Shown here piece by piece: positions 40,319-58,847 of a DNA stretch of 64,000 nt. How positions within the stretch are numbered: the stretch's first letter is position 1; every line of letters starts with the position of its first letter. The position numbers and the translations under genes were made by a program. The notes beneath the pieces were generated by a model. That model saw nothing but the letters and a program-made list of their open reading frames with translations, was not told where the DNA came from and ran no database searches. Source of the stretch: Terriglobia bacterium (lineage in GTDB: Bacteria > Acidobacteriota > Terriglobia > Bryobacterales > Bryobacteraceae). The stretch spans positions 43,714 to 107,713 of the forward strand of contig JAIQFK010000024.1 of NCBI GenBank assembly GCA_020073305.1, in the 5' to 3' direction.

Positions 40319-40320
40319 AT

Positions 40321-42834
40321 TTATCGCGCGAAGTAACTGCGTGTAGGTGCAGGCGGAGCCGGACTGCCGCGAACCGCTAGCCACAGGATATCATTCAGCT
40401 CGTTGTCGTCGATGCGGTCCTCTTCGCTGAAGTCGAGCCGCGATGAACGAGCTGCGGCAGGAGACGCCGCCGGATTCCGTTCATCCAGAGCGATGCGTGG
40501 TTTCTCGGCGGTGTACGGCGCCAGATCGGGTGCGGCCTGGAACGCCGCATGCATGGGCCGGGCTCCGGCGTCGAACTGCGTCATGGGATTGAGGCCCAGA
40601 ATCAGCTCGATGGTTCGCAGCTCGGATGTTGTGTTATACATGCTGCTGTCCACCGCACGCCGCCTGACGTAAGGCGATAGGACGAAAGCCGCCGAGCGGT
40701 GGGAATCGACGTGGTCCGGGCCATTTTGCGCGTCGTCTTCCAGAACAAAGATCGCGGTCTTGGGCCACCAGCGGCTATGCGAGACGCCTTCGACGATCAT
40801 GCCCAGCGCGTAATCATTATCGGCCACCAAAGAGAGCGGGGCGGGCCGTCCGGGCGTGGCGCCGTAGGTGTGGTCGTTCCCCAGCCGCATGAAAATCAGC
40901 CGGGGCATCTGGCCGGTTTTTTCAAACTCCGCCAAGTCGCGCAAAAAGACCTTGGCGCGCTCGACATCCGGATAATTCAGGTCGAAGCCTCGATACTGAG
41001 AGTTCGTTACGGTTCGCAGAACGGGATCGCGCACCGATTCGACCTGGGTCTCGCCGGCAGCAGGGGATTTGCGATTGTTCACGTAGTACCCGTAGTTTCG
41101 CATCGTGATCCCGGCGGCTGCGGCGTTCGTCCACAAGTAGCCGGCAGCGGGTAACGCAGTAGGCTCCTGGCCCTCGTAGTCGTAAAGCTTGCGCCTGCCT
41201 GCATAGCTGTTGGGCCACATCTTCTGCACGTAATCGGAAGCGATGGCTGCGGTAGACCAGTTGTGGCCGTCCGCGCTCACGTCGGAGTTGACGTAGAAAT
41301 TGTCCAGCAAGACGAATTCACGCGCCAGCTTGTGATGGTTCGGAGTGATCTGCTCACCGAAGAGCACCAGCGAGGCGTCCCCATTGCCTTCCTTCATATC
41401 GCCCAACACCTGATCGTAGGTGCGATTCTCTTTCACGATGTAGATGACGTTTTCTATCGGTGCTGCCACGCCCGGGCGGCTGGGAATTGGTCCGGCGTTT
41501 CCCGTCCCCGCGTCATCCAGGCGCGCATCGCGATACGGCGAGTTCGCCAGCACGGTTTTGGAGTACTCGCGCAGTTGAGCGTCCGTAACGGGATCGACGA
41601 ACGAAGCGGTGCCGGTTTGGATCCGGCCCACATATTCGACAGAACTCACCCCCAGATATGCGGATTCGGTGCTGCGCACCGGGCTCGGGCCTTTCGGATT
41701 GGGAAACGAGCGCAGCCCGCGGCCATTCAACACCACGAGTCTGCCGTCGCTCAGGCTACGCGCCGCCGTGGGGTACCATCCAGTGGGAACGAAGCCGAGC
41801 ACATCACTGCGGTCCTGGGAAACATCTACTACCCCCACGGCATTGGCATCGGAACAAACCACGTACAGGCGGCTGTGGTCCGCTGCCAGGGCCAGCGCGC
41901 TCGGCGTCATCCCAAGCGGCTGCCGCGGGGTCATCGCCACATTGATGGACTCGACGACTTGCATTTCGTTCGACGCCGAGACGCCCACGGTGTAAACGCT
42001 GTTGGTATTCGACGCCGAGACGAAGAGCCGCGCCACCCACGACGGTTCGCCTTCAGCGGGTTCGTTTTTGCCACTGCGCCACACCATGTCGGTGGGATGG
42101 GGTCCGATCCGCAGAGAGGCCATAAGGCTGCCGCTTTCCGCCTGGTACTGGGCCAGCGTGCCGTCGGTCCAACTGGTCACAAAGAACGATTTGCCATCCG
42201 GGTGAAACAGAATCCGATAGGGGCGCCGGCCGGTCTTGATCCGTTCGATCACCATTCCGGACTGCGGATTGATGATCACGACCGAGTCATGATAGAGGTC
42301 GGCCGCATAGATAAGCCGCCCGTCGGGCGAGATCGCGATGTCGCCGATGAAATCGCGATTCGTTCTTTTCTCCTCGGGCACCACGACGAAGGTGCGCGCC
42401 GGCTGCAGTACGCCTTGAGCATAACTGAACTCGAACACCGCGGCCCGCGAGCCTCCGCCCACGTAGACGCGATCCCCTTTGGGCGAGAAGGTCAGGCCGA
42501 GCCAGCCATCCGCCACCGGAACCCGTGAGGTCTCGCGCACCGAGGTGGTATCGAGAACGCTGATAGATGGCGGATTGTACCCGCCGTTCAGCACCAGCAG
42601 GTAGCGGCCGTCCGGCGCGAGCGCAGACGACATCGGAAACGTATCGAGCGGCACCTGGGTCCCAGCCGGCGTGAGACGCCAGCCGCTGTTCAGCAGGAAG
42701 CCGCCACCCGGGAGCGGACCCACTCGTTCGGGAGGAACCGGCTGTGACAACACGAGCGCCGCGCCCGCGATCAGAAAGAGCGAGCACGCGCCAGAAAGCC
42801 ACACAGATCGCAACGGCATGGCGTTGATTTTCAT
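40321..42834 (-). CDS. Exported YncE-type beta-propeller / phosphoesterase fusion
   Basis: An 837-aa protein with an N-terminal signal peptide (LSGACSLFLIAGAALVLSQ). Residues about 50-410 form a YVTN-type beta-propeller (repeats such as ISPDGRLIYAADL and HPDGKSFFVTS). The C-terminal part is an alkaline-phosphatase-superfamily phosphoesterase: NVIYIVKENRTYDQVLGDM, SADGHNWSTAAIASDY and FVLEDDAQNGPDHVDSHRS with metal-binding Asp/His. It probably hydrolyses a phosphoester in the periplasm. It overlaps nadE by 4 nt, an odd pairing for an exported protein. Confidence 0.85.
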   Translation of the reverse strand: MKINAMPLRSVWLSGACSLFLIAGAALVLSQPVPPERVGPLPGGGFLLNSGWRLTPAGTQVPLDTFPMSSALAPDGRYLLVLNGGYNPPSISVLDTTSVRETSRVPVADGWLGLTFSPKGDRVYVGGGSRAAVFEFSYAQGVLQPARTFVVVPEEKRTNRDFIGDIAISPDGRLIYAADLYHDSVVIINPQSGMVIERIKTGRRPYRILFHPDGKSFFVTSWTDGTLAQYQAESGSLMASLRIGPHPTDMVWRSGKNEPAEGEPSWVARLFVSASNTNSVYTVGVSASNEMQVVESINVAMTPRQPLGMTPSALALAADHSRLYVVCSDANAVGVVDVSQDRSDVLGFVPTGWYPTAARSLSDGRLVVLNGRGLRSFPNPKGPSPVRSTESAYLGVSSVEYVGRIQTGTASFVDPVTDAQLREYSKTVLANSPYRDARLDDAGTGNAGPIPSRPGVAAPIENVIYIVKENRTYDQVLGDMKEGNGDASLVLFGEQITPNHHKLAREFVLLDNFYVNSDVSADGHNWSTAAIASDYVQKMWPNSYAGRRKLYDYEGQEPTALPAAGYLWTNAAAAGITMRNYGYYVNNRKSPAAGETQVESVRDPVLRTVTNSQYRGFDLNYPDVERAKVFLRDLAEFEKTGQMPRLIFMRLGNDHTYGATPGRPAPLSLVADNDYALGMIVEGVSHSRWWPKTAIFVLEDDAQNGPDHVDSHRSAAFVLSPYVRRRAVDSSMYNTTSELRTIELILGLNPMTQFDAGARPMHAAFQAAPDLAPYTAEKPRIALDERNPAASPAAARSSRLDFSEEDRIDDNELNDILWLAVRGSPAPPAPTRSYFAR

Positions 42835-44480
42835 TCCGTGTATTTTTGTGCAATGGGAAAACGCCGCCCAATGCCGAATGCCTTCGAGGTCACCTTGAGG
42901 CCTGGAGCGGCCTGCTGCCTTTTGTACTCGTTCCGGTCGACCTGATTGATGATTTGCTTCACCAGTTCGAGCGGCACGCCGAGCTGTTCTGATATTTGCC
43001 GTGGAGATGCGTCCTCTTCCACGTACAGGCCCAGGATCGGATCCAGAACGTCATAAGGCGGAAGCGAATCGGTGTCTTTTTGATTCGGCCGCAGTTCGGC
43101 CGAGGGCGCCTTCTCAAAGACCGCTTCCGGTATCGCGCCCGGATGGCGCTTGTTCGCCACCCGCGCCAGCAAGTAGACCAGCGTCTTCGGCACATCGCTG
43201 ATCACCGCGAGGCCGCCGCACATATCGCCGTACAGGGTGCAGTACCCGACGGCCAGCTCGCTCTTGTTTCCAGTGGTCAGCACCATCGCGCCCCACTTGT
43301 TCGACAGAGCCATCAGCGTTACGCCGCGCAGACGGGCCTGCAGATTCTCTTCGGTCACATCACGCGGCGCGTCGGCGAAGAGCGGATCCAGTGTCTTGAG
43401 ATACTCCTCGTACACCGGCTTGATGGAAGCCAGCTCGAAGCGGATGCCCAGGTTCGCCGCCAGCGAGCGCGCGTCCTCGACGCTTCCCGCGGACGAAAAA
43501 GGACCGGGCATGCCGACACCCACGACGTTTTCCACGCCCACGGCATCCGCCGCAATCACCGCTGTTAGCGATGAGTCGATGCCGCCGCTTAACCCCAGAA
43601 GCACGCCCCGGAACCCGCATTTTCGAATGTAGTCGCGCGTGCCCAGCACCAAGGCTTCATACGCCGCCTCGCATTCATCCGCCAGGTTTTGATGTTGGTC
43701 TCCTTGGTTCGTGGCGAGATCGACGAAAACCAGGTCCTCTTGGAAGGAAGCCGCGGACGCGATTACCTGGCCCTCCCGGTTCACGGCAAAACTGGTGCCG
43801 TCGAAGATCAGCGAATCATTGCCGCCGACCTGATTCACGTAGACCAGGGGCACACCGTGATGCCGTGCTGCGGTGGTGAAAATCTTGCGGCGCAGGGCGC
43901 GTTTGCCCATATGGTACGGCGAGGCGTTGATGCTGATCAGAACCTGGCCGCCGGCCGCAATCAGCTCGTCAACCGGATCGCGCCGGTAGAGTTGGCGCTC
44001 CCAGAATTGTTTGTCGTTCCAGGCGTCCTCGCAAATTGTGAGGGCTACGCGAGTATCGCCGGATACCCAGAGCTTTTGATGTTCGGCGGGCATGAAGTAG
44101 CGCGCTTCATCAAAGACGTCGTAGGTCGGCAGCAGCATTTTGGTTTGCCGGAACACCACGTCACCCTTCTGCAAGATCGCGGCGCTATTGGTTGCTCGTT
44201 TGCCGGCGGAGGATGGCGCCCGGCCCACGTATCCGCAGATAATGCGCAACGGCAGGCCGGCGGTCGCGGAGGCGAGGCAAGCCACCTGCTGCTCCGAGCG
44301 CTCGACGAATGTCGGCTTCTCGACCAAGTCGCGCGGCGGATAGCCGGTGATGGACAGTTCCGGGAAGACGAGCAGGTCTGCTCCTTTGGCGGCAGCCTCT
44401 CGCGCCGTCGACGCCATGTGATCGACGTTGCCGGCAAGATCGCCAACCGTTGTATTGATCTGTCCCAGCGCGATTTTCAT
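42831..44480 (-). CDS. nadE: Glutamine-dependent NAD+ synthetase
   Basis: A 549-aa two-domain enzyme for the last step of NAD synthesis. The N-terminal nitrilase-like glutaminase has Glu in VFPELSITGYPPRD, Lys in RQTKMLLP and Cys in ALTICEDAWND. The C-terminal synthetase has the ATP loop LLGLSGGIDSSLTAVIAADA and later GNKSELAVGYCTLYGDMCGG. The start ATG 44480 is preceded by TAGAAT (44491-44486, minus strand). It heads the nadE-phosphoesterase-GH57 operon; nadA lies 2.6 kb away on the same strand. Confidence 0.96.
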   Translation of the reverse strand: MKIALGQINTTVGDLAGNVDHMASTAREAAAKGADLLVFPELSITGYPPRDLVEKPTFVERSEQQVACLASATAGLPLRIICGYVGRAPSSAGKRATNSAAILQKGDVVFRQTKMLLPTYDVFDEARYFMPAEHQKLWVSGDTRVALTICEDAWNDKQFWERQLYRRDPVDELIAAGGQVLISINASPYHMGKRALRRKIFTTAARHHGVPLVYVNQVGGNDSLIFDGTSFAVNREGQVIASAASFQEDLVFVDLATNQGDQHQNLADECEAAYEALVLGTRDYIRKCGFRGVLLGLSGGIDSSLTAVIAADAVGVENVVGVGMPGPFSSAGSVEDARSLAANLGIRFELASIKPVYEEYLKTLDPLFADAPRDVTEENLQARLRGVTLMALSNKWGAMVLTTGNKSELAVGYCTLYGDMCGGLAVISDVPKTLVYLLARVANKRHPGAIPEAVFEKAPSAELRPNQKDTDSLPPYDVLDPILGLYVEEDASPRQISEQLGVPLELVKQIINQVDRNEYKRQQAAPGLKVTSKAFGIGRRFPIAQKYTE

Positions 44481-44485
44481 CGAGA

Positions 44486-44491
44486 ATTCTA
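44486..44491 (-). promoter_or_regulatory. -10-like TAGAAT before nadE
   Basis: TAGAAT on the minus strand lies 5 nt upstream of the nadE ATG, without a ribosome-binding site in between; another candidate leaderless start. Confidence 0.35.
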
Positions 44492-44539
44492 TAGTGGCAC
44501 AGCCATCCGCCTTGCGTGTGGGCCGCGGGACGGCTGCAG

Positions 44540-44568
44540 GTTTAAGGTCGCAAATTGCGACCTTAAAC
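44540..44568. repeat. Palindrome across the ORF6N stop codon
   Basis: A 29-bp near-perfect palindrome whose core TAAGGTCGCAAATTGCGACC (plus TTA) occupies 44543-44565. It contains the stop codon of the ORF6N gene. Its 23-bp core is the exact reverse complement of the core at 44872-44894. No T-run follows, so it is not a standard terminator. Confidence 0.75.
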
Positions 44569-45120
44569 GCGCTGGCTGTGATCGGCGTTAAACCCGATGT
44601 GGCGCCCTCGAACGGGCTCGGGTGGCGGCTCCATCAATTGATAGATGGCCTGAAACACCTTCCTGAATTGAGAGTCGTATTTCTTCTCCATCTGCTTCAG
44701 CTTCCGCGCAAGCTCCTTGTTTCGCGCCGAAATCTCACGTAGCTTCACAAAGGCGCGCACGATCGCAATGTTCACCGCGATGGAGCGGTCACTGTTCAGC
44801 ACACTCGAAAGCATCGCCACACCCTGTTCGGTGAAGACGTACGGCAAATACTTGCGGTGATGGCCGCGCTTTAAGGTCGCAATTTGCGACCTTACTTCCA
44901 TCACCGCCCTGGCCTCGGCCGTTCTGAGCCGGAACATGAAATCCTCGGGAAATCGCTTCCGGTTGCGTTTCACCTGTTCATTGAGCCGCTTGGTCGGGAC
45001 ACCGTATAGCTCGGCGAGATCCACATCGAGCATCACTTTGTGCCCCCGAATCACGTAAATGCGCCGTTCAACGGATGACGCCAGAGCGGGCACATGGACC
45101 AGCGCAGTGCTGTTCGGCAC
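44563..45120 (-). CDS. ORF6N-domain DNA-binding protein
   Basis: A 185-aa protein with the ORF6N domain in its N-terminal half: RIYVIRGHKVMLDVDLAELYGVPTKRLNEQVKRN, then RFPEDFMFRL and LPYVFTEQGVAML. A basic coiled-coil tail follows (about 130-165, KLREISARNKELARKLKQMEKK). ORF6N proteins are predicted DNA-binding factors of phage, toxin-antitoxin or accessory origin; function is uncertain. GTG 45120 has GGAGG 8 nt upstream; the frame also opens earlier at 45159. Part of its coding sequence (RSQIATLK) is a 23-bp palindrome mirrored at its stop codon. It is probably a mobile or accessory insertion. Confidence 0.82.
   Translation of the reverse strand: MPNSTALVHVPALASSVERRIYVIRGHKVMLDVDLAELYGVPTKRLNEQVKRNRKRFPEDFMFRLRTAEARAVMEVRSQIATLKRGHHRKYLPYVFTEQGVAMLSSVLNSDRSIAVNIAIVRAFVKLREISARNKELARKLKQMEKKYDSQFRKVFQAIYQLMEPPPEPVRGRHIGFNADHSQRV
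44872..44894. repeat. Palindrome inside the ORF6N gene
   Basis: TAAGGTCGCAATTTGCGACC plus TTA, perfect except for the central base; it encodes the RSQIATL stretch on the minus strand. It is the exact reverse complement of the 23-bp core at 44543-44565, about 310 bp away. Confidence 0.75.
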
Positions 45121-45198
45121 GTTGTGTACCTCCGGTCTTTCGTGGAAAGCACATCTCACGGCTGGAGATGTGGATCGCCGGGTCAGCCCGCCGGCTTG

Positions 45199-46197
45199 TC
45201 AGCCTCCGATCGCGTACATCGGCCGCGGTGGCGGCACAAATCGAGTGCTGTTGATTTCGTGGCCGATCCATTTCGCCTGCACGTTGGAGCGGATCAGCCG
45301 GGCGATCTCGTCATCCGATGCACCCGAGCGAAGCAGGGACTTCACATCGGCTTCCTCAATGGCGAACAGGCAGTAGCGCAGCTTGCCGTCGGAAGTCAGG
45401 CGGAGGCGATTGCAGTTGAGGCAGAAAGGCCGCGTCACCGACGCGATGAAGCCGACCCGCCCGCCACCATCCGCATAACGATACTCCGTAGCGGGGGCGC
45501 GCGGATCACGATCCGGAATATCCACCAGGGGCGAGACCTCGCGCGACAACACCTGGATGATCTCGTCCGCGCTCAGCACCCGGGTCCGATCCCATATCTT
45601 CTGCGCATCGAGCGGCATGAACTCGATGAATCGCGGCTCGATGCCGCGGTCCCTGCAGAAATGCGCCAGCGGAACGATGTCGGGCTCGGTGAGCCCTTTC
45701 ACCGCCACGGCATTCAACTTGACCGGGCCGTAACCGAGCTGGAGGCAGGCCTCAATTCCCGCGAGAACTCTGCCGAGATCGTCGCGCCGGGTAATCTTCA
45801 GGAAGCGCTCGCGATCGAGCGTATCGAGATGAATGTTGATGCGGCGCAGGCCCGCCTGGTAGAGGGGCTTTGCCATCTCCGCGAGCAGCACGGCGTTGGT
45901 TGTGAGCGCGAGATCCTGGATACCCGGAATCGCCGACAGGTTGCGGATGAGAACCGCCAGATCCCGGCGCACCAGCGGCTCGCCACCGGTGACCCGCAGC
46001 TTGGTGATTCCCAACTGCACCGCCACGCGCACGAAACGCTCGATCTCTTCAAACGACAGGATCTCGCCGCGCTCCATGAACTGGACGCCACTCTCCGGCA
46101 TGCAGTAAAAGCACCGGATATTGCACCGGTCGGTTACGCTGATCCGGAGATTGTCATGAGCTCGTCCGAACGAATCGACGAGCCGGGTGGTGTCCAT
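45199..46197 (-). CDS. moaA: GTP 3',8-cyclase (molybdenum cofactor synthesis)
   Basis: A 332-aa radical SAM enzyme making the first intermediate of molybdopterin. The radical SAM cluster cysteines are C25, C29 and C32 (DRCNIRCFYC). The C-terminal cluster is in FCLNCNRLRLTSDGKLRYC. The C-terminus IYAIGG carries the Gly-Gly tail that inserts in the active site of MoaA. Its start is 6 nt after the nadA stop. No other moa/moe gene is in the window. Confidence 0.95.
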   Translation of the reverse strand: MDTTRLVDSFGRAHDNLRISVTDRCNIRCFYCMPESGVQFMERGEILSFEEIERFVRVAVQLGITKLRVTGGEPLVRRDLAVLIRNLSAIPGIQDLALTTNAVLLAEMAKPLYQAGLRRINIHLDTLDRERFLKITRRDDLGRVLAGIEACLQLGYGPVKLNAVAVKGLTEPDIVPLAHFCRDRGIEPRFIEFMPLDAQKIWDRTRVLSADEIIQVLSREVSPLVDIPDRDPRAPATEYRYADGGGRVGFIASVTRPFCLNCNRLRLTSDGKLRYCLFAIEEADVKSLLRSGASDDEIARLIRSNVQAKWIGHEINSTRFVPPPRPMYAIGG

Positions 46198-46203
46198 ACA
46201 GGC

Positions 46204-47133
46204 TCACTTTAGGGCGAGCATACGGTCGAGCGGCACCCGGGCCCTGCGCATCAGGTCGCCGGTCAAGTCCACGCGCGGCTCCAGGTAGAGTAACGCATCC
46301 CGCAGCTTTTCGAGCGTGTTCATGCGCATGTACGGGCACTCACTGCAATTGCAGTTTTCGTTGGCTACGAAGTAGAACTTTTTCTCCGGCGCCAGTTTGT
46401 GCAGCGAATGGCCCACGCCGCTCTCGGTCATGACAATGAATTCCCGGGCGGGGCTATGCACGCACCAGTTGATGATGGCTGACGTCGATCCGACGAAATC
46501 GGCCATATCCAGCACCGCTTTCGGGCATTCGGGGTGGGCAACGATCTTCGCACCCGGATGCGCCTCGCTCGCGGCGATCAGCCGCCGCACCGGGAACGTC
46601 GCGTGCACGATACAGGTCCCCTGCCAGATCTTCATGTTCTGGCGGCCCGTCTGCTGTTGAACGTAGTTGCCGAGATTCTGGTCCGGCAGGAATAGAATGG
46701 TCTTGTCGAGGGGAATTGAGTTGACCACCTGCACCGCATTGCGCGATGTGCACAGGATGTCGCTCTCCGCCTTCACCTCGATCGACGTGTTGATGTAGCT
46801 GACGATGACGTGATCCGGATGCAGCCGCCGGTAGGCGCGTACGGGCTCAGCCGGGCAACTGTCCACCAGGCTGCAACTGGCGTTGCGATCGGGAACCACC
46901 ACAATCCGGTTGGGGTTCAGAACCTTGGCCGTCTCTGCCATGAACCACACCCCGCAAAACGCGATCACATCGCCATCGAAGTCGCGCGCTTTGCGAGCCA
47001 GCTCCAAGCTATCCCCCACCCAGTCGGCCAACTCCTGAATCTCCGCCTCCTGATAGTGGTGGGCGAGCAGGACGGCGCGGCGTTCTACCTTAAGGTCGCA
47101 GATCTCCTCGGTCAGGGTCTTGGTAGCCAGCAT
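46204..47133 (-). CDS. nadA: Quinolinate synthase
   Basis: A 309-aa [4Fe-4S] enzyme joining iminoaspartate and DHAP to quinolinate in NAD synthesis. Features are LLAHHYQEAEIQELADWVGDS, FCGVWFMAETAKVLNP, cluster Cys in NASCSLVDSCPAE, VAHPECPKAVLD and NCNCSECPYM. ATG 47133 was preferred over the upstream TTG at 47145. It is followed by moaA. nadB and nadC are not nearby; nadE is the only other NAD gene in the window. Confidence 0.94.
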   Translation of the reverse strand: MLATKTLTEEICDLKVERRAVLLAHHYQEAEIQELADWVGDSLELARKARDFDGDVIAFCGVWFMAETAKVLNPNRIVVVPDRNASCSLVDSCPAEPVRAYRRLHPDHVIVSYINTSIEVKAESDILCTSRNAVQVVNSIPLDKTILFLPDQNLGNYVQQQTGRQNMKIWQGTCIVHATFPVRRLIAASEAHPGAKIVAHPECPKAVLDMADFVGSTSAIINWCVHSPAREFIVMTESGVGHSLHKLAPEKKFYFVANENCNCSECPYMRMNTLEKLRDALLYLEPRVDLTGDLMRRARVPLDRMLALK

Positions 47134-47200
47134 GGGTAAAGTCAACCCTATTGTAACAACTCATTTATATAGAGTGCCGGAGCGATAATAAGGGTGCAAC

Positions 47201-48568
47201 TTGTTGAAAATCGTCCTCATCTCGACGTACGAAATGGGCCGGCAGCCTTTTGGCTTGGCCTCCCCCGCCGCCTGGCTGCGTGCGGACGGGCACGAGGTGA
47301 CGTGTGTCGACCTGGCTTGCAGTCCGCTGCCGCGGGCGTCGGTGGCTGAAGCGGACCTGGTGGCGTTTTACCTTCCCATGCACACCGCCACCCGTCTGGC
47401 TGTGAACGTAATCGAGAAGGTGCGGGCCCTGAATCCGCGGGTGCAGCTTTGTTGTTTTGGGCTCTATGCGCCCATGAACGAGCCCTACTTGCGGGAACTT
47501 GGCATTCACGCGATTTTGGGCGGGGAGTTCGAACAGGGCCTGCTGGACCTTGCGGGCAGGTTGGGGCGAGGGAGCAACGGGCAGCCGCCCTTGATTTCGC
47601 TCGACCGTCAGCAGTTTCTGACGCCGGATCGGGCCGGCCTGCCTTCGTTGACGCGGTACGCGAAACTCTTGGTGAACGGCGAGGAGCGGATTGCCGGTTA
47701 CACCGAGGCCAGCCGCGGCTGCAAGCACCTGTGCCGGCACTGTCCGGTGGTTCCGGTTTATAACGGAGTGTTTCGCGTGGTCGAGCGCAAGGTGGTGCTG
47801 GAGGATATCCGGCAGCAAGTGGCGGCCGGGGCCCAGCACATCACCTTCGGCGATCCGGATTTCTTCAACGGGCCGGGGCACGCGGCGGCGATTGTCGAAT
47901 CCCTGCATGCGGAGCATCCGTCGATCACGTACGACGTCACGATAAAGATCGAGCACCTGCTGCGTCACCGGGAGTTGCTGCCGGTGCTGAAGCGGACTGG
48001 CTGCCTGTTTGTGACCAGCGCGGCGGAATCCATTGAGGACGCGGTGCTCGAGAAGCTCGCCAAGGGTCACACGCGCGCGGATTTTGTCGAGGCTGTGAGG
48101 ATCGTGCGCGAGAGCGGGCTGACGCTCGCGCCGACGTTGGTGACGTTCACCCCGTGGACCACGTGGGATGGATACCGCGAGCTGCTACAGCTCCTGGTCG
48201 ATCTGGATCTGGTCGAGAATGTCGGTCCCATCCAGCTCGCTATGCGCCTGTTGATTCCGGCCGGATCACGGCTTCTGGAATTGCCCGAAATCCGAGAACT
48301 GGCGGGACCCTTCGACCCAGCCGCACTCTCGCACCAATGGCGGCACCGCGATCCGAAGCTCGACCAGCTCTGCGCCGACATTCAGAAACTGATTCAGCAC
48401 GAAGAGCGCCGCAAGGCCACGCGGTCCGAGATTTTCGGCAGGATCTGGGAGTTGGCCAACGGCCGGCCGCCCGATTTCCAACTGGCCTCGCGCGCCACGA
48501 TTCCGTATCTCAATGAGCCCTGGTACTGTTGAGCGGAACCTACGGAAGAGCAGGTTGCTCTTCTATAA
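47201..48568 (+). CDS. CUAEP-tail radical SAM selenoprotein (in-frame TGA = Sec)
   Basis: A 455-aa radical SAM protein if the in-frame TGA at 48530-48532 is read as selenocysteine (residue 444). Residues about 1-125 resemble a B12-binding-like domain (VLISTYEMGRQPFGLASPAAWLR). The radical SAM cluster is C174, C178 and C181 in SRGCKHLCRHC. The C-terminus reads PYLNEPWYC, then TGA, then AEPTEEQVALL and TAA, so the tail is C-U-A-E-P. I recall an annotated family with exactly this CUAEP or CCAEP ending; function is unknown. TTG 47201 has AAGGG upstream. A SECIS-like hairpin follows the TGA. Taken as a stop, TGA would leave 443 aa. selA/B/C/D are not in the window. Confidence 0.82.
48544..48563 (+). 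promoter_or_regulatory. Bacterial SECIS-like hairpin
   Basis: GAAGAGCA (48545-48552) and TGCTCTTC (48556-48563) form a perfect 8-bp stem with a GGU apex, or a 7-bp stem with an AGGUU loop. The apical GGU begins 21 nt after the TGA. Apex sequence and distance resemble the E. coli fdhF SECIS (GC-AGGUC-UGC), which SelB recognises. The stem is within the coding sequence for the last residues of the selenoprotein. Confidence 0.7.
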
Positions 48569-48576
48569 CCTAAGTT

Positions 48577-48621
48577 AGCCACTCATCTTATACAGGTCAG
48601 TAAGTGTGCCTGCAAGTGGCT
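48577..48621 (+). repeat. Interrupted inverted repeat after the selenoprotein gene
   Basis: AGCCACT (48577-48583) and AGTGGCT (48615-48621) pair, with an inner CAGG/CCTG pair. This makes a long imperfect hairpin between the selenoprotein stop and the GT87-like gene. It may separate or modulate the two transcription units. Confidence 0.25.
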
Positions 48622-48650
48622 GAAAGCTGTTATGTTGAGACAGGACGAAC

Positions 48651-49793
48651 TTGGCTAGCACAGATACACCGGCACCAGACATCGATGCGGCCAGAAGGCG
48701 CCGGATCGTGCGCAATTTGACTCTCGCTCTTATCATTGTCAGCGGGATCTTACTGCGGGCTTATATCTTCGATCACCTATCGTATGACCTGAGAGTTTGT
48801 GCGACGGACTTCTCTGCCTTCTATGCCGGTGGCGCGCTTGCCGGGAAGCCCCAACTCTACTCGCCCGAGGCCGCATTCGACGTCGAAAGGCGAGCCATGG
48901 GCTGTGTCATGGAAAACCTGATCTTCATCAGGCCGCCTTTCTACGCGCTCTTGATGTGGCCCTTGGCGCAATTGCCGTTCCTGACCGCGCTGATACTGTG
49001 GCGCATTTTGGGCCTGGTTGCTGTCGGTGTTTTCATCTGGATGTGGCCCGATGATAAGTGGATCGCTGCCGCTGCCTGCGCGTGGTATTTGCCCTTGGCA
49101 ACCAATTTTACGGTGGGTCAGGACCTGGCTTTCTTACTGGTCATATTGCTCGGAGCCTACCGCTGCCTGAAAGCCGGCAGACAGTTCTGGGCGGGCGTCC
49201 TGTTCGGTTTGTGCCTCATCAAGTTTCACCTGTTCTTGTTACTGCCGTTAATGATCTTCCATAAGAGACTCTGGCGAACATTACCGGGAATCACCTGTGT
49301 CGCCTTGATTGCGCTGGCTGCCTCTTACATCGCCGGAGGTTCGCATTGGATCGAGCACTACCGCCTGGCTCTTCAGGACTTGCGGATGGATCCATACCCT
49401 TGGAACATGGTCAATTTGAAGGGGCTCTTCTACAATCATCCGGCATGGCTGATTGCATCCATCGCAGTCATCGTGCTCCTGAGTTGGTACGTCATCTACA
49501 AAGGGTCATTGGAGATCGCTCTCGCAGCGGTTCTTATTGGCGGTGTGCTGATCAACCCGCACACCACAATTGCCGACGGCACATTGATCCTGCCGGTATT
49601 CTTGATGGCTCGCAGAGCGCCCCTCGCAATCCTGCGAACCCTGGCCATATTTGCATTGACGCCGTTCTATAAGTTCCTGCCATCGGGAACGTTTCAAATC
49701 ATTCTGATCGGCACTCTGATCCTGGGAGCCTGGATGCTACGCGAGCGCCGCTTGTCCAGCGAAGTGCCTGCTCGAGCCGAAGCCGGAGCGTAA
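48651..49793 (+). CDS. GT87/DUF2029-like polytopic glycosyltransferase
   Basis: A 380-aa membrane protein with about nine hydrophobic helices; the first is IVRNLTLALIIVSGILLRAYIF. DFSAFYAGGALAGKPQLYSPEA with the loop Asp, RPPFYALLMWPLAQLPFLTAL and a late NPHTTIADGTLI segment fit the DUF2029 (GT87, polyprenyl-phosphate-mannose-dependent) family. It probably transfers a sugar from a lipid carrier. The start is TTG 48651. It lies between the selenoprotein and the ATP-grasp genes and ends 6 nt before the latter, so they look cotranscribed. Its base composition seems less GC-rich than its neighbours'. Confidence 0.72.
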   Translation: MASTDTPAPDIDAARRRRIVRNLTLALIIVSGILLRAYIFDHLSYDLRVCATDFSAFYAGGALAGKPQLYSPEAAFDVERRAMGCVMENLIFIRPPFYALLMWPLAQLPFLTALILWRILGLVAVGVFIWMWPDDKWIAAAACAWYLPLATNFTVGQDLAFLLVILLGAYRCLKAGRQFWAGVLFGLCLIKFHLFLLLPLMIFHKRLWRTLPGITCVALIALAASYIAGGSHWIEHYRLALQDLRMDPYPWNMVNLKGLFYNHPAWLIASIAVIVLLSWYVIYKGSLEIALAAVLIGGVLINPHTTIADGTLILPVFLMARRAPLAILRTLAIFALTPFYKFLPSGTFQIILIGTLILGAWMLRERRLSSEVPARAEAGA

Positions 49794-49799
49794 CATGGG

Positions 49800-51050
49800 A
49801 TGGTGCCTCGCGTATTGCTGGTAGCCGCCACCACCGGGTATCAGACTCGTGCCTTCGCTGACGCGGCGCGCCAACTCGGGTTCGACCTGGTGCTCGCGAC
49901 CGACCGTTGCCACGTGCTGAAAGATCCCTGGGGCGATCACGCCATTCCCGTGCGCTTCGAGGATCCCGTCAGTTCACGCGATACGCTCGCGGCCGAGGGC
50001 CGGTTTGACGGTGTTGTCGCCGTTGCCGACCGGCCTACGCTGATCGCAGCGCTAGCGGCAGAAGCCCTCGGAATTCCATACAATTCGCCGGCGGCGGTCG
50101 CTCGATGCCGTGACAAGTACCTTGCACGCCAGCGATTCCAGGCAGCCGGCCTTCCCGTTCCAGAGTTTTTCCGCGTGGCGATCACCGAGAATCCTGCCGA
50201 CGTGGCTGATCATGCCCCGTTTCCTTGCGTGCTGAAGCCGCTTGGACTCTCAGCCAGCCGCGGAGTGATCCGGGCCAACAACGCAGAAGAATTCGTCGAG
50301 GCCTTCGAGCGCATCCGAACCATCCTCGAGACGAGCGACGTGCTCATCCTGCGCGAAGAACAGAACCGGTTTATCCAGATAGAGAGTTTCATCGAAGGCC
50401 GCGAGTTCTCGATCGAAGGGCTCGTCACCGCCGGCGAATTGCAGGTCCTGGCTATCTTTGACAAGCCCGATCCCCTGGATGGTCCGGTATTCGAAGAAAC
50501 GATTTATGTGACGCCCTCACGAGAGAGTGCCGAAACGCAAACGCTGCTCGTCGAAGCCGTCAACCGCGCGGTTCACGCTCTGGGCCTCGCGCACGGGCCG
50601 ATTCACGCCGAGCTTCGGTTGAACCGCCAGGGCGCATGGGTGCTCGAAGTGGCCGCCAGACCCATCGGCGGGCTGTGCGCACGCGCGCTGCGGTTTGATG
50701 CGGGCATGTCACTCGAGGAACTGATCCTGCGGCACGCCGTGGGCGAGGACGTCTCGGCCGCACAGCTCAGCGATCCCGCCAGCGGCGTGATGATGATTCC
50801 CATCCCGAAGGGCGGCCTTTACGAGGGCGTGGAGGGCGTCGAGCAGGCGTCCGCGGTGGCTGGCGTGGAAGAGGTCGTGATCACGGCGAAGGAAGGGCAA
50901 AAGATCCTGCCCCTGCCAGAGGGCGCCAGTTATCTGGGTTTCATCTTTGCTCGCGGCGATTCTCCCGCCGGCGTCGAAGCCGCACTGCGCCAGGCGCACG
51001 GCTGTCTGAAATTTGAAATCGCTACCGCGCTTCCGGTGATACGGCGCTAA
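49800..51050 (+). CDS. ATP-grasp domain enzyme
   Basis: A 416-aa ATP-grasp protein of the carbamoyl-phosphate-synthase/PurK-like type. The N-terminal pre-ATP domain is VLLVAATTGYQTRAFADAARQLG. The ATP-grasp domain includes PFPCVLKPLGLSASRGVIRANN, FIEGREFSIEGLV and the metal-binding HAELRLNRQGAWVLEVAARPIGG. Such enzymes ligate a carboxylate to an amine or thiol through an acyl phosphate. The substrate is unknown; presence downstream of a radical SAM selenoprotein suggests a small-molecule or peptide pathway. It overlaps the convergent gene by 4 nt. Confidence 0.85.
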   Translation: MVPRVLLVAATTGYQTRAFADAARQLGFDLVLATDRCHVLKDPWGDHAIPVRFEDPVSSRDTLAAEGRFDGVVAVADRPTLIAALAAEALGIPYNSPAAVARCRDKYLARQRFQAAGLPVPEFFRVAITENPADVADHAPFPCVLKPLGLSASRGVIRANNAEEFVEAFERIRTILETSDVLILREEQNRFIQIESFIEGREFSIEGLVTAGELQVLAIFDKPDPLDGPVFEETIYVTPSRESAETQTLLVEAVNRAVHALGLAHGPIHAELRLNRQGAWVLEVAARPIGGLCARALRFDAGMSLEELILRHAVGEDVSAAQLSDPASGVMMIPIPKGGLYEGVEGVEQASAVAGVEEVVITAKEGQKILPLPEGASYLGFIFARGDSPAGVEAALRQAHGCLKFEIATALPVIRR

Positions 51051-51364
51051 AAACCAGCGGGCAGAGTCACTCCGGCGGCGCGCAGCGCGATCTTCGCCAG
51101 CGAAATGATGGTTCCAATCATTTGGACGCGATTTTTTTCCGTGGCGATTGCCTCGTCGACCTGCGGCATCAGAAGGCGAAGTTGCTCAACCTGCACAGGA
51201 GCCACCGAGTCCAGGGCAGCGAGCGGGTCGAAACCTTCCGCGATCATCTGCTTGTTGAGTTGCAGAATCAGTATCCGCAGGCTGGCCGTAGCCTCATCAT
51301 CCGGAGCCGATTCCAGCTTGGCGGACAGGTCATTTAGCTGCGTAAAGAGTTCATCGATCGTCAT
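51047..51364 (-). CDS. Small helical protein, unknown
   Basis: A 105-aa acidic, helical protein with no cysteine (MTIDELFTQLNDLSAKLESA start). The C-terminal helix may be partly hydrophobic (MIGTIISLAKIALRAAGVTL). No family is recognised. The start overlaps the stop of the upstream lipoprotein gene by 4 nt, so the two are expressed together and may interact. Confidence 0.5.
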   Translation of the reverse strand: MTIDELFTQLNDLSAKLESAPDDEATASLRILILQLNKQMIAEGFDPLAALDSVAPVQVEQLRLLMPQVDEAIATEKNRVQMIGTIISLAKIALRAAGVTLPAGF

Positions 51365-51960
51365 GGTTGTGCCTTTGGTACCGTTTGGGTGAGGTCTTGG
51401 GTGAGTGCTGTAATCGCGTCCACGATGGCGAGGATTTTTTGGTTGCTCCCGCCAACGGCCTGTATCAGCGGCCCGAGCGCTGTTTCATCGGCCTTCTTCA
51501 GCCGGATATATTCATCGAGTTTCTCCGACGCGGTGACGATCACCTGGTAAGCCCCTTCCAGTTCCTGATCCTGTTTCTTCAGACTGGCCACCGCGTCAGT
51601 AATTTTGCGCTTGAGGGGAAGGTCGGCGCCGGTGTTGGTTGAGACCTCTCGCATGAGTTCGTCGAGGACTTTCTGGCGCGCCTCCGGCGTGAGCGTCCCT
51701 CCAAGGGTCGCGTTGGCACGCGTTCCGTATTCCCGGTCGATTTGGGCGGTGAGTTCATCGATCCGGGCGGTAGCGATCTTTGCCTGTGCGTCGGCAAATT
51801 TCTCGACGGCGACAAAGTAGCTGTGCAAAGAGATCACATACGCGCGCTGGGTGACGACGAGCTGTGACGACAAGCCGCGCACCGCTACGGGCGTCGCGCA
51901 GCCTGTCAGAAAACTAACGGCAGTGGCGAACAGGAGAAAGCAAATACGGTACATGGACAC
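51361..51960 (-). CDS. Predicted lipoprotein, helical, unknown
   Basis: A 199-aa protein with a lipoprotein signal (YRICFLLFATAVSFLTGC; Cys21 would be acylated). The rest is predicted to be long helices (for example VEKFADAQAKIATARIDELTAQIDREYG and KKQDQELEGAYQVIVTASEKLDEYI), probably a periplasmic coiled coil or helical bundle. No family is recognised. It precedes and overlaps the 105-aa protein gene. Confidence 0.6.
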   Translation of the reverse strand: MSMYRICFLLFATAVSFLTGCATPVAVRGLSSQLVVTQRAYVISLHSYFVAVEKFADAQAKIATARIDELTAQIDREYGTRANATLGGTLTPEARQKVLDELMREVSTNTGADLPLKRKITDAVASLKKQDQELEGAYQVIVTASEKLDEYIRLKKADETALGPLIQAVGGSNQKILAIVDAITALTQDLTQTVPKAQP

Positions 51961-52028
51961 ACCTGTATTCAGGCCCCTTTCGGGGCTCGGAAAAAATCTC
52001 GACTAGCGGGATTCAGTAGGCGAAGGAG

Positions 52029-52355
52029 CTAATTTTTTTGCCGCGGCGGCACGAAGTCCGGCGGAAGGGCAGCGCCTTCGCCGAAGAAGTAGTCATCCAT
52101 CTGCTTGAGGAGAAATTCCTGCGCTTCAGCGGTTCCCAAGTTCAGACGGTATTCATTCATGAGCATTTTCATGTGCTCAACCCACATTTTCCAGGCTTCT
52201 TTGGAGACATTTTCGTAGATTTTCTGGCCCAGCGGGTGGCCTTCGAACGGAACCTCATCCAGACCCTCCATTTCGCGCTGGAATTTGACACAGAAGACCT
52301 TCCGCGCGCCGGCTCGGATCTCGGTCGAAATCGGAGGTACACTGCCGCAGCCCAT
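52029..52355 (-). CDS. YggX/Fe(II)-trafficking-type protein
   Basis: A 108-aa protein matching the YggX family: KVFCVKFQREMEGLDEVPFEGHPLGQKIYENVSKEAW, where Cys near the start and the Trp/Glu pattern are typical, then MLMNEYRLNLGTAEAQEFLLKQMDDYFF. YggX protects Fe-S clusters and is linked to iron trafficking. It has an N-terminal extension of about 17 aa relative to E. coli; ATG 52355 has AAGGAGA 5 nt upstream, which supports the extension. It is read from the minus strand next to the gcv operon. Confidence 0.85.
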   Translation of the reverse strand: MGCGSVPPISTEIRAGARKVFCVKFQREMEGLDEVPFEGHPLGQKIYENVSKEAWKMWVEHMKMLMNEYRLNLGTAEAQEFLLKQMDDYFFGEGAALPPDFVPPRQKN

Positions 52356-52398
52356 TCGGGTCTCCTTAATTCCAGCATACTACGCCCTGCAAGGGGTT

Positions 52399-53901
52399 TT
52401 AGTCCGCTGCCTTGCTCGCGGTCTCGCCGGGTTTCCATCGCAGGATGGGGCGCCGGGCCGCTGTGACCTCGTCAACCCGGCTGGTCCGGGTGCTATGGGG
52501 AGCGGTGCGAACCAGTTCGGGGTCGGTGTCGATTTCACCGGCTATGGAGGTCATGGCCTCCACAAACAGGTCCAGTTCGAGCTTGCTCTCGGTTTCGGTC
52601 GGCTCGATCATCAGCGCGCCATGTACGATCAACGGAAAGCTCACGGTATAGGGATGGAAGCCGTAGTCGATCAGGCGCTTGGCTATGTCACCGGTGCGCA
52701 CGCCGCGCTTGGCCTGGCGTTCGTCGCTGAACACCACTTCGTGCATGTTGGGGGCTTTGTAGGGCAGATCGTAATGCGGTTCGAGCTTCTTACGCAGGTA
52801 ATTGGCGTTCAGAACCGCGTCCACGGTCGCGTTGCGCAAGCCGTTTCCGCCGTGCGCCAGGATATAGGCCAGGGCGCGGACCATGACGCCGAAGTTGCCA
52901 TAGAACGCGCGCACCCGTCCGATGGAGCGGGGCCGCTTATAGTCAAAGCTCCACTTGTTCCGCGCGTGCTTCAACCGCGGCAGGGGCAAAAACGGTTCAA
53001 AGATCTTTTTCACCGCGACGGGACCGCCGCCGGGCCCGCCGCCTCCGTGAGGCGTGGAGAACGTCTTGTGCAGATTGAGATGCATGACGTCGACGCCGAA
53101 ATCCCCGGGCTTTGCAATTCCCACGAGCGCGTTCATATTGGCGCCGTCCATGTAGAGCAGCGCGCCTTTTTTGTGCAGGATCTCCGCTATGCTCTTGATA
53201 TTCTCTTCGAAGACGCCGAGCGTATTCGGATTCGTGACCATGAGCGCCGCGACGTCTTTGTCGACGATGCGTTCCAGGCCCGCCACGTCGACCATGCCGC
53301 GCTCGTTCGAGGGGATGTTTTCGACTGCGTAACCGGCGGTGGCGGCGGTAGCCGGATTGGTGCCGTGCGCCGAATCGGGAACCAGAATCTTGCGGCGCGG
53401 GTTGCCGCGTTTTTCGAGCAAGGCGCGAATCAGCAGGATACCCGTCAGCTCGCCGTGGGCGCCCGCCGCGGGCTGTAGCGTGACCGCATCCATGCCCGTG
53501 ATCTCGGCCAGCGCGGCCTCCAGCCGGGCCATGATCTCCATCGCCCCCTGCGCGAGGGTCTCCGGCTGATACGGATGCGCCCAGGCCAGGCCATCGAGCC
53601 GGGCCACCAGTTCGTTCACCCGCGGGTTGTACTTCATGGTGCAGGAACCGAGCGGATACATCCCCAGGTCGATGGCGTAGTTCCAGGTAGAAAGCCGCGT
53701 AAAGTGGCGGATGACCTCCACTTCGCTGACTTCCGGGAAGCCATCAATCTCCGGGCGCACATTCGCCGCGCCCAGCGCCGCAACGGCATCTACAGGCGGC
53801 ACGTCGAGTACGGGTAGTTGATACCCCTTCTTCCCGGGCGAACTGCGCTCAAAAAGCGGCGGTTCATTTTGCGTGATATGGGAGCGGACCTTGGTGATCA
53901 T
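52399..53901 (-). CDS. gcvPB: Glycine dehydrogenase (decarboxylating) subunit 2
   Basis: A 500-aa PLP subunit of the glycine cleavage P-protein (split form). It contains [52 protein letters not shown] and the PLP-binding [20 protein letters not shown]. It decarboxylates glycine and passes the aminomethyl group to the lipoyl arm of GcvH. It overlaps gcvPA by 4 nt. A C-terminal extension ends beyond the usual subunit. Confidence 0.95.
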
Positions 53902-55229
53902 GCAACACGCTCGACGGCCTGAAACGCCCGGCCCACTTCATCCATCTGCTCGCGCCTGGTCATTTCCGTGGCGCACAGGAGCATGCCGTTCTCCAGCTCC
54001 GGATACCATTGCTTCAGCGGCAGCCCGCCGATGATCTTCTTCTTCAGCAGAGCGTGGTTGATCTCGACCGGCGAGCGGCCATTTGATGACGCGACGAATT
54101 CGTTAAAGAACGGGCCGGTAAAGCGCGGCGTGACCTGGCTGCTCAGGTAGTGCGCCTTGGCGAGATTCTGCTCGGCGAGCTCTCGCAGCCCCTGCTTCCC
54201 GTACACGCTCATGAACACCGTCGCCATGAGGGCGATCAGCGCCTGGTTGGTGCAGATGTTGGAGGTCGCTTTCTCGCGCCGGATATGCTGCTCGCGTGTG
54301 GCGAGCGTCAGGCAAAAGGCGCGATGGCCGCGCGAATCGCGCGTCTCCCCCACCAGACGTCCCGGAATCTGGCGAATGAACCGTTCCTTGGTCGCGATGA
54401 TTCCGGCAAACGGGCCGCCGTAACTGGGCGGGATGGCAAACGACTGCAGTTCGCCGGCCACGATGTCGGCTTCGGCCGGAGGCCTCAGCAGTCCAAGCGA
54501 CACCGCCTCGGTGAACAGCACCACGAGCAGTGCGCCTCGGCGATGCGCCAATTCGGCGGCGGCTTCCACCTGCTCGACGATGCCGAAAAAGTTGGGCGAT
54601 TGAATGACCACCGCCGCCGTCTGATCGTCCAGCGTGCTCTCGATCTGTTCGAGATTCACCCCACCCGATTCCGGCACGTAGGCGAGTTCCTCAATCGGCA
54701 TGTGTTCGTAACGGGCGTAGGTTCGGAGCACCTCGCGGTATTCCGGATGAACCGTACGTGCCACCAGGATGCGCCGCCGCCCCGTCACGCGCGCCGCCAT
54801 GAGCGCCGCTTCGGGCAATGCCGTCGAGCCGTCGTACATGGACGCATTGGCCACGTCCATGCCCGTCAACTGGCAGATCATCGTCTGAAACTCGAAGATG
54901 GTGGCGAGGGTGCCTTGAGAAATTTCGGCCTGATACGGCGTATAGGATGTAAGGAACTCGCCGCGGGAAACCACCGCATCGACCAGGACCGGCCGGTAAT
55001 GCGCATACACCCCGGCGCCCAGGAATGACGCGTAACCGTTGGCATTCTCAGCCGCGCGCGCGCGAAAGTAATCGACGATTTCGTATTCGGAGATGCCCGG
55101 AGCGAGCGCCAGCGGCTGCTTCAGCCGCACATCATCGGGAAGGTGCGAGAAAAGATCCTCGGCGGAAGCCAGGCCGCACGCCGCCAGCATCTCCTGGCGT
55201 TCGGAGTCGGACTTCGGAAGGTATCGCAA
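53898..55229 (-). CDS. gcvPA: Glycine dehydrogenase (decarboxylating) subunit 1
   Basis: A 443-aa partner of gcvPB. Family blocks: [19 protein letters not shown] at the start, [56 protein letters not shown] region (here [19 protein letters not shown]) and [12 protein letters not shown]. It starts with TTG 55229 directly after the gcvH stop (TAGTTG). The split P-protein is usual outside Proteobacteria. Confidence 0.95.
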
Positions 55230-55616
55230 CTAGCTTTCTGCCCCCACGTAGGTTTGATAATCAGCGGCGGAAAGCAGTTGCTTCAGCTCATCGGGGACGC
55301 TCATGCGGACCTTAACCAGCCAGGCGGAGCCGTGTGGGTCCTGATTCAATTTTTCGGGCGCCTGTCCCAGGCTCTCGTTCACTTCGACGATCTCGCCAGA
55401 AACCGGCGAGTAGATGTCGGAAACGGCTTTCACCGACTCGACCGAGCCCAGCGACTTGCCCTGTTCAATCCGCGCGCCGACCTTCGGCAGATCGACGTAA
55501 ACGATGTCGCCCAGCTCCTTTTGCGCGTGATCGGTGATGCCAATGGTTCCGACATCGCCCTCGGCCCGCACCCATTCGTGTTCCTTGGTGTAACGCAGAT
55601 TTTCCGGATAGCTCAT
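55230..55616 (-). CDS. gcvH: Glycine cleavage system H protein
   Basis: A 128-aa lipoyl carrier. The lipoylation site is K63 in GSVESVKAVSDIYSP. The N-terminus YTKEHEWVRAEGDVGTIGITDHAQKELGD and the downstream SGEIVEVNESL follow the family. It shuttles the aminomethyl intermediate between the P, T and L proteins. It overlaps gcvT by 4 nt. Confidence 0.97.
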   Translation of the reverse strand: MSYPENLRYTKEHEWVRAEGDVGTIGITDHAQKELGDIVYVDLPKVGARIEQGKSLGSVESVKAVSDIYSPVSGEIVEVNESLGQAPEKLNQDPHGSAWLVKVRMSVPDELKQLLSAADYQTYVGAES

Positions 55617-56722
55617 GCTGTTTTTGCGCGCTTGTAGAAAGGTGTGTTCACGGTCTCCGCATCCACCGCCTGGTTCCGCACCATCACCTGGATGGCGCGG
55701 CCGGGACGCGCTTCGCCGGCAGGCAAATAGCAGAGGCCGATATTCCTGTTGAGGCTGGGCGCCGGCGAGCCGCTGGTCACCCAGCCGGCGGCCAGGCCGT
55801 CCAACCGCACCTCGTAGCCATCACGCCCAATCCCACGACCGCGCATTTCGAACCCCACCAGCTTGCGGCTCACGCCGTGCTCCTTCTGTTTGGCCAGAGC
55901 AGAGCGCCCGATGAACTCGCCCTTGTCCAGCTTCACCATCCAGCCCAGATCGGCCTCGTACGGCGTAATGGAAGCGTGGATCTCGTGGCCGTAAAGCGCC
56001 ATCTTGGCCTCGAGGCGCAGCGTGTTGCGCGCGCCCAGGCCACACGGCTTGATGCCGAAGTCGCGGCCGGCTTCGAGAAGCTCGTTCCAGATACGCGGCG
56101 CTTCCGCGGGCGCCACATAAATCTCAAAACCGTCTTCGCCGGTGTAGCCGGTGCGGGCAATCCTCGCCTGCACACCCGAGACCGTTCCGTCCTTGAACCA
56201 GTAATAGCCGATCGAGCCGAGTTCCACGGGCGTGAGCCTTTCGACTGTGCGCAGCGCCAGCGGACCCTGGACGGCGATCTGTGCGTAACGGCCGCTCGAG
56301 AATTCCACCTGGGCGTCGAATTTGTTGGCCGCGCGGATGTGCTCGAAATCCTTTTCCTGGTTGGCGGCATTGACGCAAAGGAAGAAGTGATCGTCGGCCA
56401 CCTTGTGCACCAGGATGTCGTCCACGAAGCCGCCATGCTCGTAGAGCAATCCCGAGTATTGCGCCTGGCCGATATGAAGCCGTGAAGCCGCGTTGGTGGT
56501 GACGTAATCGACAAGGCGAACCGCCTCCGGCCCGCAGACCTCGATCTCTCCCATGTGGCTCACATCGAACAAGCCCACCGCTTTGCGTACGGCATGGTGC
56601 TCTTCGACGAGGCTTGAATACTGCACCGGCATGTCCCAGCCGCCGAAATCCACCATTTTGGCGCCCATGGACACGTGTACCGCATGCAGCGGCGTGCGCT
56701 TTAAAGCCACAGATTGCGCCAT
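55613..56722 (-). CDS. gcvT: Aminomethyltransferase (glycine cleavage T protein)
   Basis: A 369-aa enzyme that transfers methylene to tetrahydrofolate and releases ammonia. Motifs: VDFGGWDMPVQYSSLVEEHHAVR, the aminomethyltransferase DVSHMGEIEV, and the folate-binding RTGYTGEDGFEIYV (Asp at the usual catalytic position). It starts the gcvT-H-PA-PB operon. ATG 56722 was preferred over TTG 56734. The 166 nt upstream to infC are too short for the tandem glycine riboswitch, and I saw no such motif. Confidence 0.96.
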   Translation of the reverse strand: MAQSVALKRTPLHAVHVSMGAKMVDFGGWDMPVQYSSLVEEHHAVRKAVGLFDVSHMGEIEVCGPEAVRLVDYVTTNAASRLHIGQAQYSGLLYEHGGFVDDILVHKVADDHFFLCVNAANQEKDFEHIRAANKFDAQVEFSSGRYAQIAVQGPLALRTVERLTPVELGSIGYYWFKDGTVSGVQARIARTGYTGEDGFEIYVAPAEAPRIWNELLEAGRDFGIKPCGLGARNTLRLEAKMALYGHEIHASITPYEADLGWMVKLDKGEFIGRSALAKQKEHGVSRKLVGFEMRGRGIGRDGYEVRLDGLAAGWVTSGSPAPSLNRNIGLCYLPAGEARPGRAIQVMVRNQAVDAETVNTPFYKRAKTA

Positions 56723-56888
56723 GGAAACAACCAACGTAACAGGGGGTGGGAAGGGGTGTCAAACCAAACGGTACGGAGGACAACGCAGTGATTGTGGCCG
56801 ACCCGAATAGGGCCTAACCAAATGAATAATTGCCAAACCCGTCGAATCCAAGTACACTTAGCTGAAAAGGTCTCGACGCTTATAGCGC

Positions 56889-57443: not shown

Positions 57444-57480
57444 TCGGAAACTGCCACACGCGGGTGTAGCATTAGACCCT

Positions 57481-58323: not shown

Positions 58324-58337
58324 CGGCACCAACGGAT

Positions 58338-58367: not shown

Positions 58368-58397
58368 AAACGTTTTGAACTGCATAAGTGGAGACGT

Positions 58398-58835: not shown

Positions 58836-58847
58836 AGAGGTTATCGA

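Follow-up and report, generated by a model that had tools for sequence, protein, structure and literature searches.

Analysis of the gene at 47201–48568 of the window (the whole stretch of 64,000 nucleotides that was analysed, from a Terriglobia bacterium) revealed a conserved C-terminal tail, exchange of selenocysteine and cysteine codons within that tail, a downstream hairpin, a set of sel genes in the genome, homology to the radical SAM enzyme ArsL along the whole core, and co-occurrence with one family of ATP-grasp proteins. Together, the likeness to ArsL and the near-constant presence of the ligase-like gene lead to the prediction that the two proteins build a small molecule. The interpretation put forward here, which is given an even chance of being right, is that an ArsL-related enzyme, in which an in-frame TGA very likely encodes selenocysteine, uses a Cys-Sec-Ala-Glu-Pro arm to make an unusual amino acid, which the ATP-grasp protein would then ligate into a peptide-like product. 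The features of the locus are as follows.

47201..48568, plus strand: predicted radical SAM selenoprotein with a CUAEP/CCAEP tail, 455 residues if the TGA is read as Sec (NF040546, Radical_SAM PF04055, AlphaFold2)
47720..47743, plus strand: radical SAM cluster motif C174-x3-C178-x2-C181 (CKHLCRHC), from the sequence; all three Cys present in 106/106 relatives and 4/4 ArsL proteins
48527..48529, plus strand: TGT, Cys-443, final residue of the truncated public gene call; Cys in 106/106 relatives
48530..48532, plus strand: in-frame TGA, predicted selenocysteine 444 (codon alignment, tree, hairpin)
48533..48541, plus strand: Ala-Glu-Pro codons of the CUAEP tail, conserved in the loci read
48544..48564, plus strand: predicted bSECIS hairpin with a 9-bp stem, loop GGU and 20 nt from UGA to loop (folding, family comparison)
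48651..49793, plus strand: GT87-type glycosyltransferase gene separating the radical SAM and ligase genes (domain search)
49800..51050, plus strand: ATP-grasp protein with an L-amino acid ligase C-terminal domain, partner of the radical SAM gene (domains, co-occurrence)

The reading frame has two candidate start codons, TTG 47201 and TTG 47204, and residue numbers (including Sec-444) are counted here from the former. From there the frame runs to IPYLNEPWYC, the last codon being TGT 48527–48529, passes through TGA 48530–48532, continues as AEPTEEQVALL and ends at TAA 48566–48568, exactly as the initial annotation had laid it out. That annotation had also recognised, from the tail, a CUAEP/CCAEP radical SAM family; indeed, the product scores 645 bits against the NF040546 profile (cut-off 500) over residues 4–453, carries the Cys-[Sec/Cys]-Ala-Glu-Pro tail that goes with this family, and also matches Pfam Radical_SAM PF04055. 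The family is thus already known, being named in NCBIfam with no function stated, and the 47201 gene is a new member of it; a Thermomicrobium roseum plasmid gene bears the same name. The public call of the 47201 gene ends at the Cys before the TGA, so the truncation that had been foreseen is real, although the public protein has 442 and not the expected 443 amino acids because its start lies one codon later. The same end point is found in 25 of the 30 public proteins in the alignment behind the first structural model (see below). Since most of these public copies of TGA genes lack tail residues that may be catalytic, activity tests designed from such entries would be run on a shortened protein.

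The second-best family for the 47201 protein is ArsL (NF040542), which matches residues 5–395 with 268 bits, short of the 450-bit cut-off for membership; identity to plasmid-borne ArsL proteins is 27–33%. The two groups share homology over about 390 residues, the radical SAM core motifs, a Cys-Cys pair near the C-terminus and a nearby ATP-grasp gene (in five of six ArsL loci, detailed below), and 46 positions that are at least 97% conserved across 106 CUAEP relatives are identical in all four ArsL proteins compared. They differ in that ArsL has a shorter linker and ends in an RCCLKC tail, which is missing from the 47201 protein and has C-U-A-E-P in its place. The Cys pair is 26 residues from a conserved core Trp in ArsL as against 60–74 in CUAEP proteins, so the tails need not be homologous. 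Moreover, His-61, His-180, His-290 and Cys-268 are conserved in CUAEP proteins and absent from 4/4 ArsL proteins, which suggests that the acceptor may differ; judged from the alignment, the extra conserved histidines may mark an altered acceptor site. According to the arsinothricin paper (PMC8552651), ArsL alone in Escherichia coli yields hydroxyarsinothricin, and is predicted to transfer the 3-amino-3-carboxypropyl group of SAM to arsenite.

The protein encoded at 49800–51050 carries two domains above their cut-offs, ATP-grasp_4 (114.5 versus 27 bits) and LAL_C2 (60.4 versus 29.4 bits), and falls well below those of the NCBIfam ligase equivalogs (best family 145 versus 625 bits; alanine-anticapsin ligase 60 versus 850 bits). 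By sequence, its closest solved relative is the L-amino acid ligase BL00235 (PDB 3vot), which aligns with the family profile at 225 bits over positions 20–409 of 416, and with the single window protein at 146 bits. The partner is predicted from these matches to be a ligase of the L-amino-acid-ligase type that forms peptide bonds. BL00235 is not known to work alongside a radical SAM enzyme.

The two genes are closely tied. Across 297 Acidobacteriota, 261 Chloroflexota and 81 Methylomirabilota genomes (E up to 1e-60), the ligase accompanied the radical SAM gene in 168 of the 173 genomes that have the latter, and was also present in 26 of the 466 that lack it; five genomes had the radical SAM gene alone. 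Both genes occurred together in 49/49, 66/68 and 53/56 of the radical SAM-bearing genomes of the three phyla, respectively (the 49 from Acidobacteriota being 48 above the family cut-off plus G201, in which the gene is split between contigs), while among genomes lacking the radical SAM gene the ligase turned up in 2/248, 20/193 and 4/25. Fisher tests gave p values of 4e-54, 5e-41 and 2e-12 in the same order, with genomes treated as independent and kinship uncorrected. The recurrence in three phyla, with patchy presence within families, makes inheritance alone an unlikely cause. The pairing also survives physical separation. Among 31 further genomes, 28 of which were picked because no ATP-grasp gene lay nearby, 29 contained the ligase (E up to 1e-40), the exceptions being G319 and G325. 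In four locus sets, which include the best 80 of 564 matches and many short flanks, the two genes were no more than 3 kb apart in 37/81, 16/29, 7/12 and 9/12 cases. Querying plasmids with the ligase brought up 245 records (20 listed) belonging to a large superfamily, and was uninformative.

An ATP-grasp gene is also found within 4 kb of ArsL in five of the six plasmid loci viewed (Priestia twice, Alicyclobacillus, Pantoea and Klebsiella), the Pseudomonas plasmid locus having none; the ATP-grasp_4 domain was present in all four of these five genes that were scanned. Three of the encoded proteins scored 78–119 bits against the CUAEP partner, and so are no closer to it than is 3vot (225 bits). 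An ArsL-type enzyme is thus repeatedly accompanied by a ligase-type gene, perhaps through independent events. When 14 ArsL-cluster proteins were used as queries, the ATP-grasp protein matched in 40 of 112 CUAEP sequences and one ArsM matched weakly in two. The ATP-grasp protein of arsinothricin-type clusters possibly makes a peptide form of the product; the word ATP-grasp does not occur in the main text of the arsinothricin paper (PMC8552651). The ArsL clusters with an RCCLKC tail and an ATP-grasp gene, on Bacillota and Enterobacterales plasmids, are L142:741-1964, L143:436-1668, L144:5572-6777, L229:5712-6776 and L230:486-1709.

The initial annotation had suggested a redox or metal-transfer step; taken together, the kinship to ArsL and the ATP-grasp partner, neither of which was visible to it, point to a biosynthetic transfer reaction. 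In the proposed scheme, insertion of selenocysteine at the UGA would create the C-terminal Cys-Sec-Ala-Glu-Pro arm, whose Cys-Sec pair would stand in for the Cys-rich RCCLKC tail of ArsL and keep a thiophilic acceptor in place at the active site. As in ArsL, SAM would then donate its 3-amino-3-carboxypropyl group to this acceptor, and the ATP-grasp protein would ligate the resulting amino acid into a small peptide-like product. A wider version can be offered tentatively, and is on balance unlikely to hold in full: that the CUAEP protein and the ATP-grasp protein, joined in many lineages by an NfuA-like protein and spread over at least five phyla, form an undescribed pathway in which the Cys-Sec arm grips a heteroatom (As, Se, S or another), the SAM aminocarboxypropyl group is placed on it, and the product is then capped as a peptide, making this a second, selenium-dependent branch of the arsinothricin type of enzyme.

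The scheme gives a lead on function for a family that databases name by its tail alone, and suggests a new role for selenocysteine, that of an arm holding the substrate. The almost constant pairing of an ArsL-related selenoprotein with a ligase-like gene also hints at a natural product or cofactor not yet described, in bacteria known mostly from metagenomes. The literature search returned no paper on CUAEP or CCAEP, nothing joining selenoprotein, radical SAM and ArsS, nothing joining arsinothricin and ATP-grasp, and only one apparently unrelated match for 3-amino-3-carboxypropyl with radical SAM and ATP-grasp. Nor did this search find in print an ArsL branch whose ligase partner looks obligate; the selenoprotein surveys of Haft and co-workers (PMC12013261, PMC9879109) may contain an earlier mention. 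Other radical SAM families with Sec exist: ArsS (TIGR04167) and TrsS (NF045646) are given as radical SAM (seleno)proteins in a 2026 review (PMC13188914), whose main text mentions none of NF040546, CUAEP and CCAEP. Neither ArsS nor TrsS is among the 13 families that match the 47201 protein.

A first AlphaFold2 model placed residues 427–447 below a pLDDT of 50, which had invited the reading of a flexible or disordered tail. The alignment behind it consisted mostly of truncated public proteins, and a model built from 47 tail-keeping rows reached a mean pLDDT of 95 (72–82 in the last four blocks), so that reading was dropped. The N-terminal domain matches the fold of the cobalamin radical SAM enzymes OxsB and TsrM and also that of AprD4, which is not known to use cobalamin. 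The description ‘B12-binding-like’ in the initial annotation fits the fold at most: the Pfam B12-binding profile gave 25.7 bits against a cut-off of 32.1, and DxHxxG, the B12-binding motif, was found in the first 140 residues of 0/106 relatives. E. coli makes no B12 de novo, and the activity of ArsL in that host would argue against a need for B12 in the ArsL/CUAEP group. AprD4 and the cobalamin-bound OxsB are 16–17% identical to the 47201 protein, and neither is known to have a Cys-Sec tail.

These fold neighbours leave room for another explanation of the arm, which is rather unlikely but the strongest of the alternatives. The Cys-Sec pair could be an internal redox couple that re-reduces a catalytic disulfide or the cluster following every turnover, while the enzyme carries out an ordinary 5'-deoxyadenosyl-radical reaction on a substrate unrelated to that of ArsL. 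A Cys next to a Sec at the C-terminus, replaceable by Cys-Cys as seen here, is typical of redox couples; OxsB and AprD4 both use 5'-deoxyadenosyl chemistry, and three conserved histidines have no counterpart in ArsL. Against this, the nearest family is ArsL itself, and no thioredoxin- or reductase-type gene was recognised by eye in the 40 + 14 neighbour clusters listed, few of which were searched against families and the weaker of which may be spurious, as they derive from mechanical ORFs.

It is less probable still that the tail binds an auxiliary Fe-S cluster acting as a sulfur or selenium donor, in the manner of MiaB or lipoyl synthase, and that an NfuA-like neighbour restores this cluster. 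NfuA rebuilds such auxiliary clusters, MiaB and RimO are among the fold neighbours, and an NfuA-like protein, which has a NifU domain and in most cases Fe-S_biosyn too, is encoded no more than 3 kb from the radical SAM gene in 7/81, 13/29, 9/12 and 0/12 loci of the four sets, which include the best 80 of 564 matches. This protein may serve in Fe-S supply. Its association is, however, not specific to the radical SAM gene: it is found neither in 12 Chloroflexota loci nor in the window, and in ligase-only genomes it lies within 3 kb of the ligase gene in 16 of the 20 loci fetched (from 26 genomes). Apart from the radical SAM cysteines, conservation is limited to Cys-268 (105/106 relatives), Cys-443 and residue 444. 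Cys-268, considered as a third ligand, starts a predicted strand (268–276) and so may lie far from the active site in the model. The loci in which a ligase and NfuA-like pair stands without a radical SAM gene are L209-L214, L216, L217, L220-L224 and L226-L228.

Thirteen ArsL-cluster proteins other than the ATP-grasp protein were searched by tblastn (E up to 1e-6) against the 112 CUAEP sequences, many with flanks of about 1.5 kb, and gave only two weak ArsM-like matches, at 34212–34559 of the window and in L043. Nor was an ars operon (arsR, arsM, arsQ, arsN1) found around the CUAEP genes in these sequences, many of which have short flanks. Gene context was accordingly rejected as support for an arsenic pathway; arsenic is a possible acceptor to which the neighbouring genes lend no support. 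In 81 loci (including the best 80 of 564), nadA was a neighbour in 7, moaA in 11 and a gene for a YggX-like Fe(2+)-trafficking protein in 14, the last also occurring in 4 of 20 loci around a distant ligase. Of these, nadA and moaA were taken as local synteny. The GT87 gene of the window is not among the 40 neighbour clusters listed for the 81 loci. Upstream in the window, an ORF6N-domain gene (44563–45159, minus strand) is flanked by an NAD-synthetase-like gene, identified by eye, and by moaA.

The assignment of the TGA itself draws on the tail codon in relatives, the hairpin and the sel genes. In total 111 loci were assembled: 80 from a GTDB genome scan (the best 80 of 564 confirmed matches), the window, 29 from an Acidobacteriota search and the T. 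roseum plasmid gene. In the 107 that were read, the codon after Cys and before Ala-Glu-Pro was TGA in 86 and a Cys codon in 21 (19 TGC, one TGT, and TGC in L074). As to the other four, L059 (TGC) and L121 (TGA) were read separately, and in L122 and L132 the match ends before the tail is reached. A further 24 of 24 loci from the phyla Chloroflexota and Methylomirabilota showed the same tail pattern, with 16 TGA and 8 Cys codons, and neither TAA, TAG nor any other codon occurred at the Sec position among the 107 + 24 loci read. The suggestion that an in-frame C-x-A-E-P exceeds chance is therefore well borne out, as 107/107 loci read (the best 80 of 564 matches included) keep Cys-[TGA/TGC/TGT]-Ala-Glu-Pro. 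On a quick tree of 110 rows (106 CUAEP proteins with four ArsL proteins as outgroup), the Sec/Cys state switches at least 13 times, 10 of these switches being forced by well-supported branches. A TGA in frame that lines up with Cys in homologues and is followed by conserved sequence is what is expected of a selenoprotein, and the unrelated sequence after Cys-443 that would have spoken against Sec was not seen. Distant relatives (L111-L120, L140, L173-L196) share the ending E-[PSA]-W-[FY]-C-[U/C]-A-E-P; in many of them the tail runs on further past AEP.

A bSECIS-like hairpin is also present at the right distance 3' of the TGA. Hairpins were scored when the stem had at least 6 bp, the loop lay 16–37 nt from the TGA and a G occupied one of the first two loop bases, the distance range and loop G being general features of bSECIS elements. 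Such a hairpin was found in 75 of 84 TGA genes (two of the 86 having been dropped for short sequence) versus 3 of 20 Cys genes (L074 having been dropped). When synonymous codons were substituted in the 84 genes, a mean of 7.2 and a maximum of 16 genes retained one over 200 trials. Moreover, the pairs 16–32, 19–29 and 20–28 (0 = TGA) vary on both sides. Among plus-strand loci, the mean folding energy z score was −1.06 for 74 TGA genes versus +0.20 for 17 Cys genes. On its own the window's hairpin has a weak folding energy (z −1.2 to −1.5), and it is the comparison across the family alone that decides. A scan of window positions 40000–60000 against Rfam yielded nothing at gathering scores.

Finally, the genome contains selA (508 bits), selB (359 bits), selD (368 bits) and a tRNA-SeC gene (selC) with anticodon tca, that is, all four of the genes whose absence would have undone the reading. 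In Acidobacteriota, selB is present in 192 of 297 genomes (E up to 1e-60). Where the radical SAM gene has the TGA form, SelB was found in 37 of 38 genomes (G100 being the sole exception); the figure is 5 of 8 where a Cys form is full-length, and 147 of 248 where the gene is lacking, with form assigned from inner stops and G001, G168 and G285, whose matches fall short of the tail, placed in no group. Homologue tails and sel genes thus agree with the initial annotation, and the TGA at 48530–48532 is very likely read as selenocysteine, insertion itself being predicted. That the protein instead ends at Cys-443 in this genome, as the public calls would have it (for this gene and for 25 of the 30 aligned public proteins), with AEP as a relic, is hardly credible given that TAA and TAG are never seen, that AEP is kept in 107/107 + 24/24 loci read, that the hairpin exceeds codon constraint and that the sel gene set is full. 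The selD gene (G000:C36:17276-18199, L025) has an in-frame TGA of its own, and so probably encodes a Sec-containing selenophosphate synthetase.
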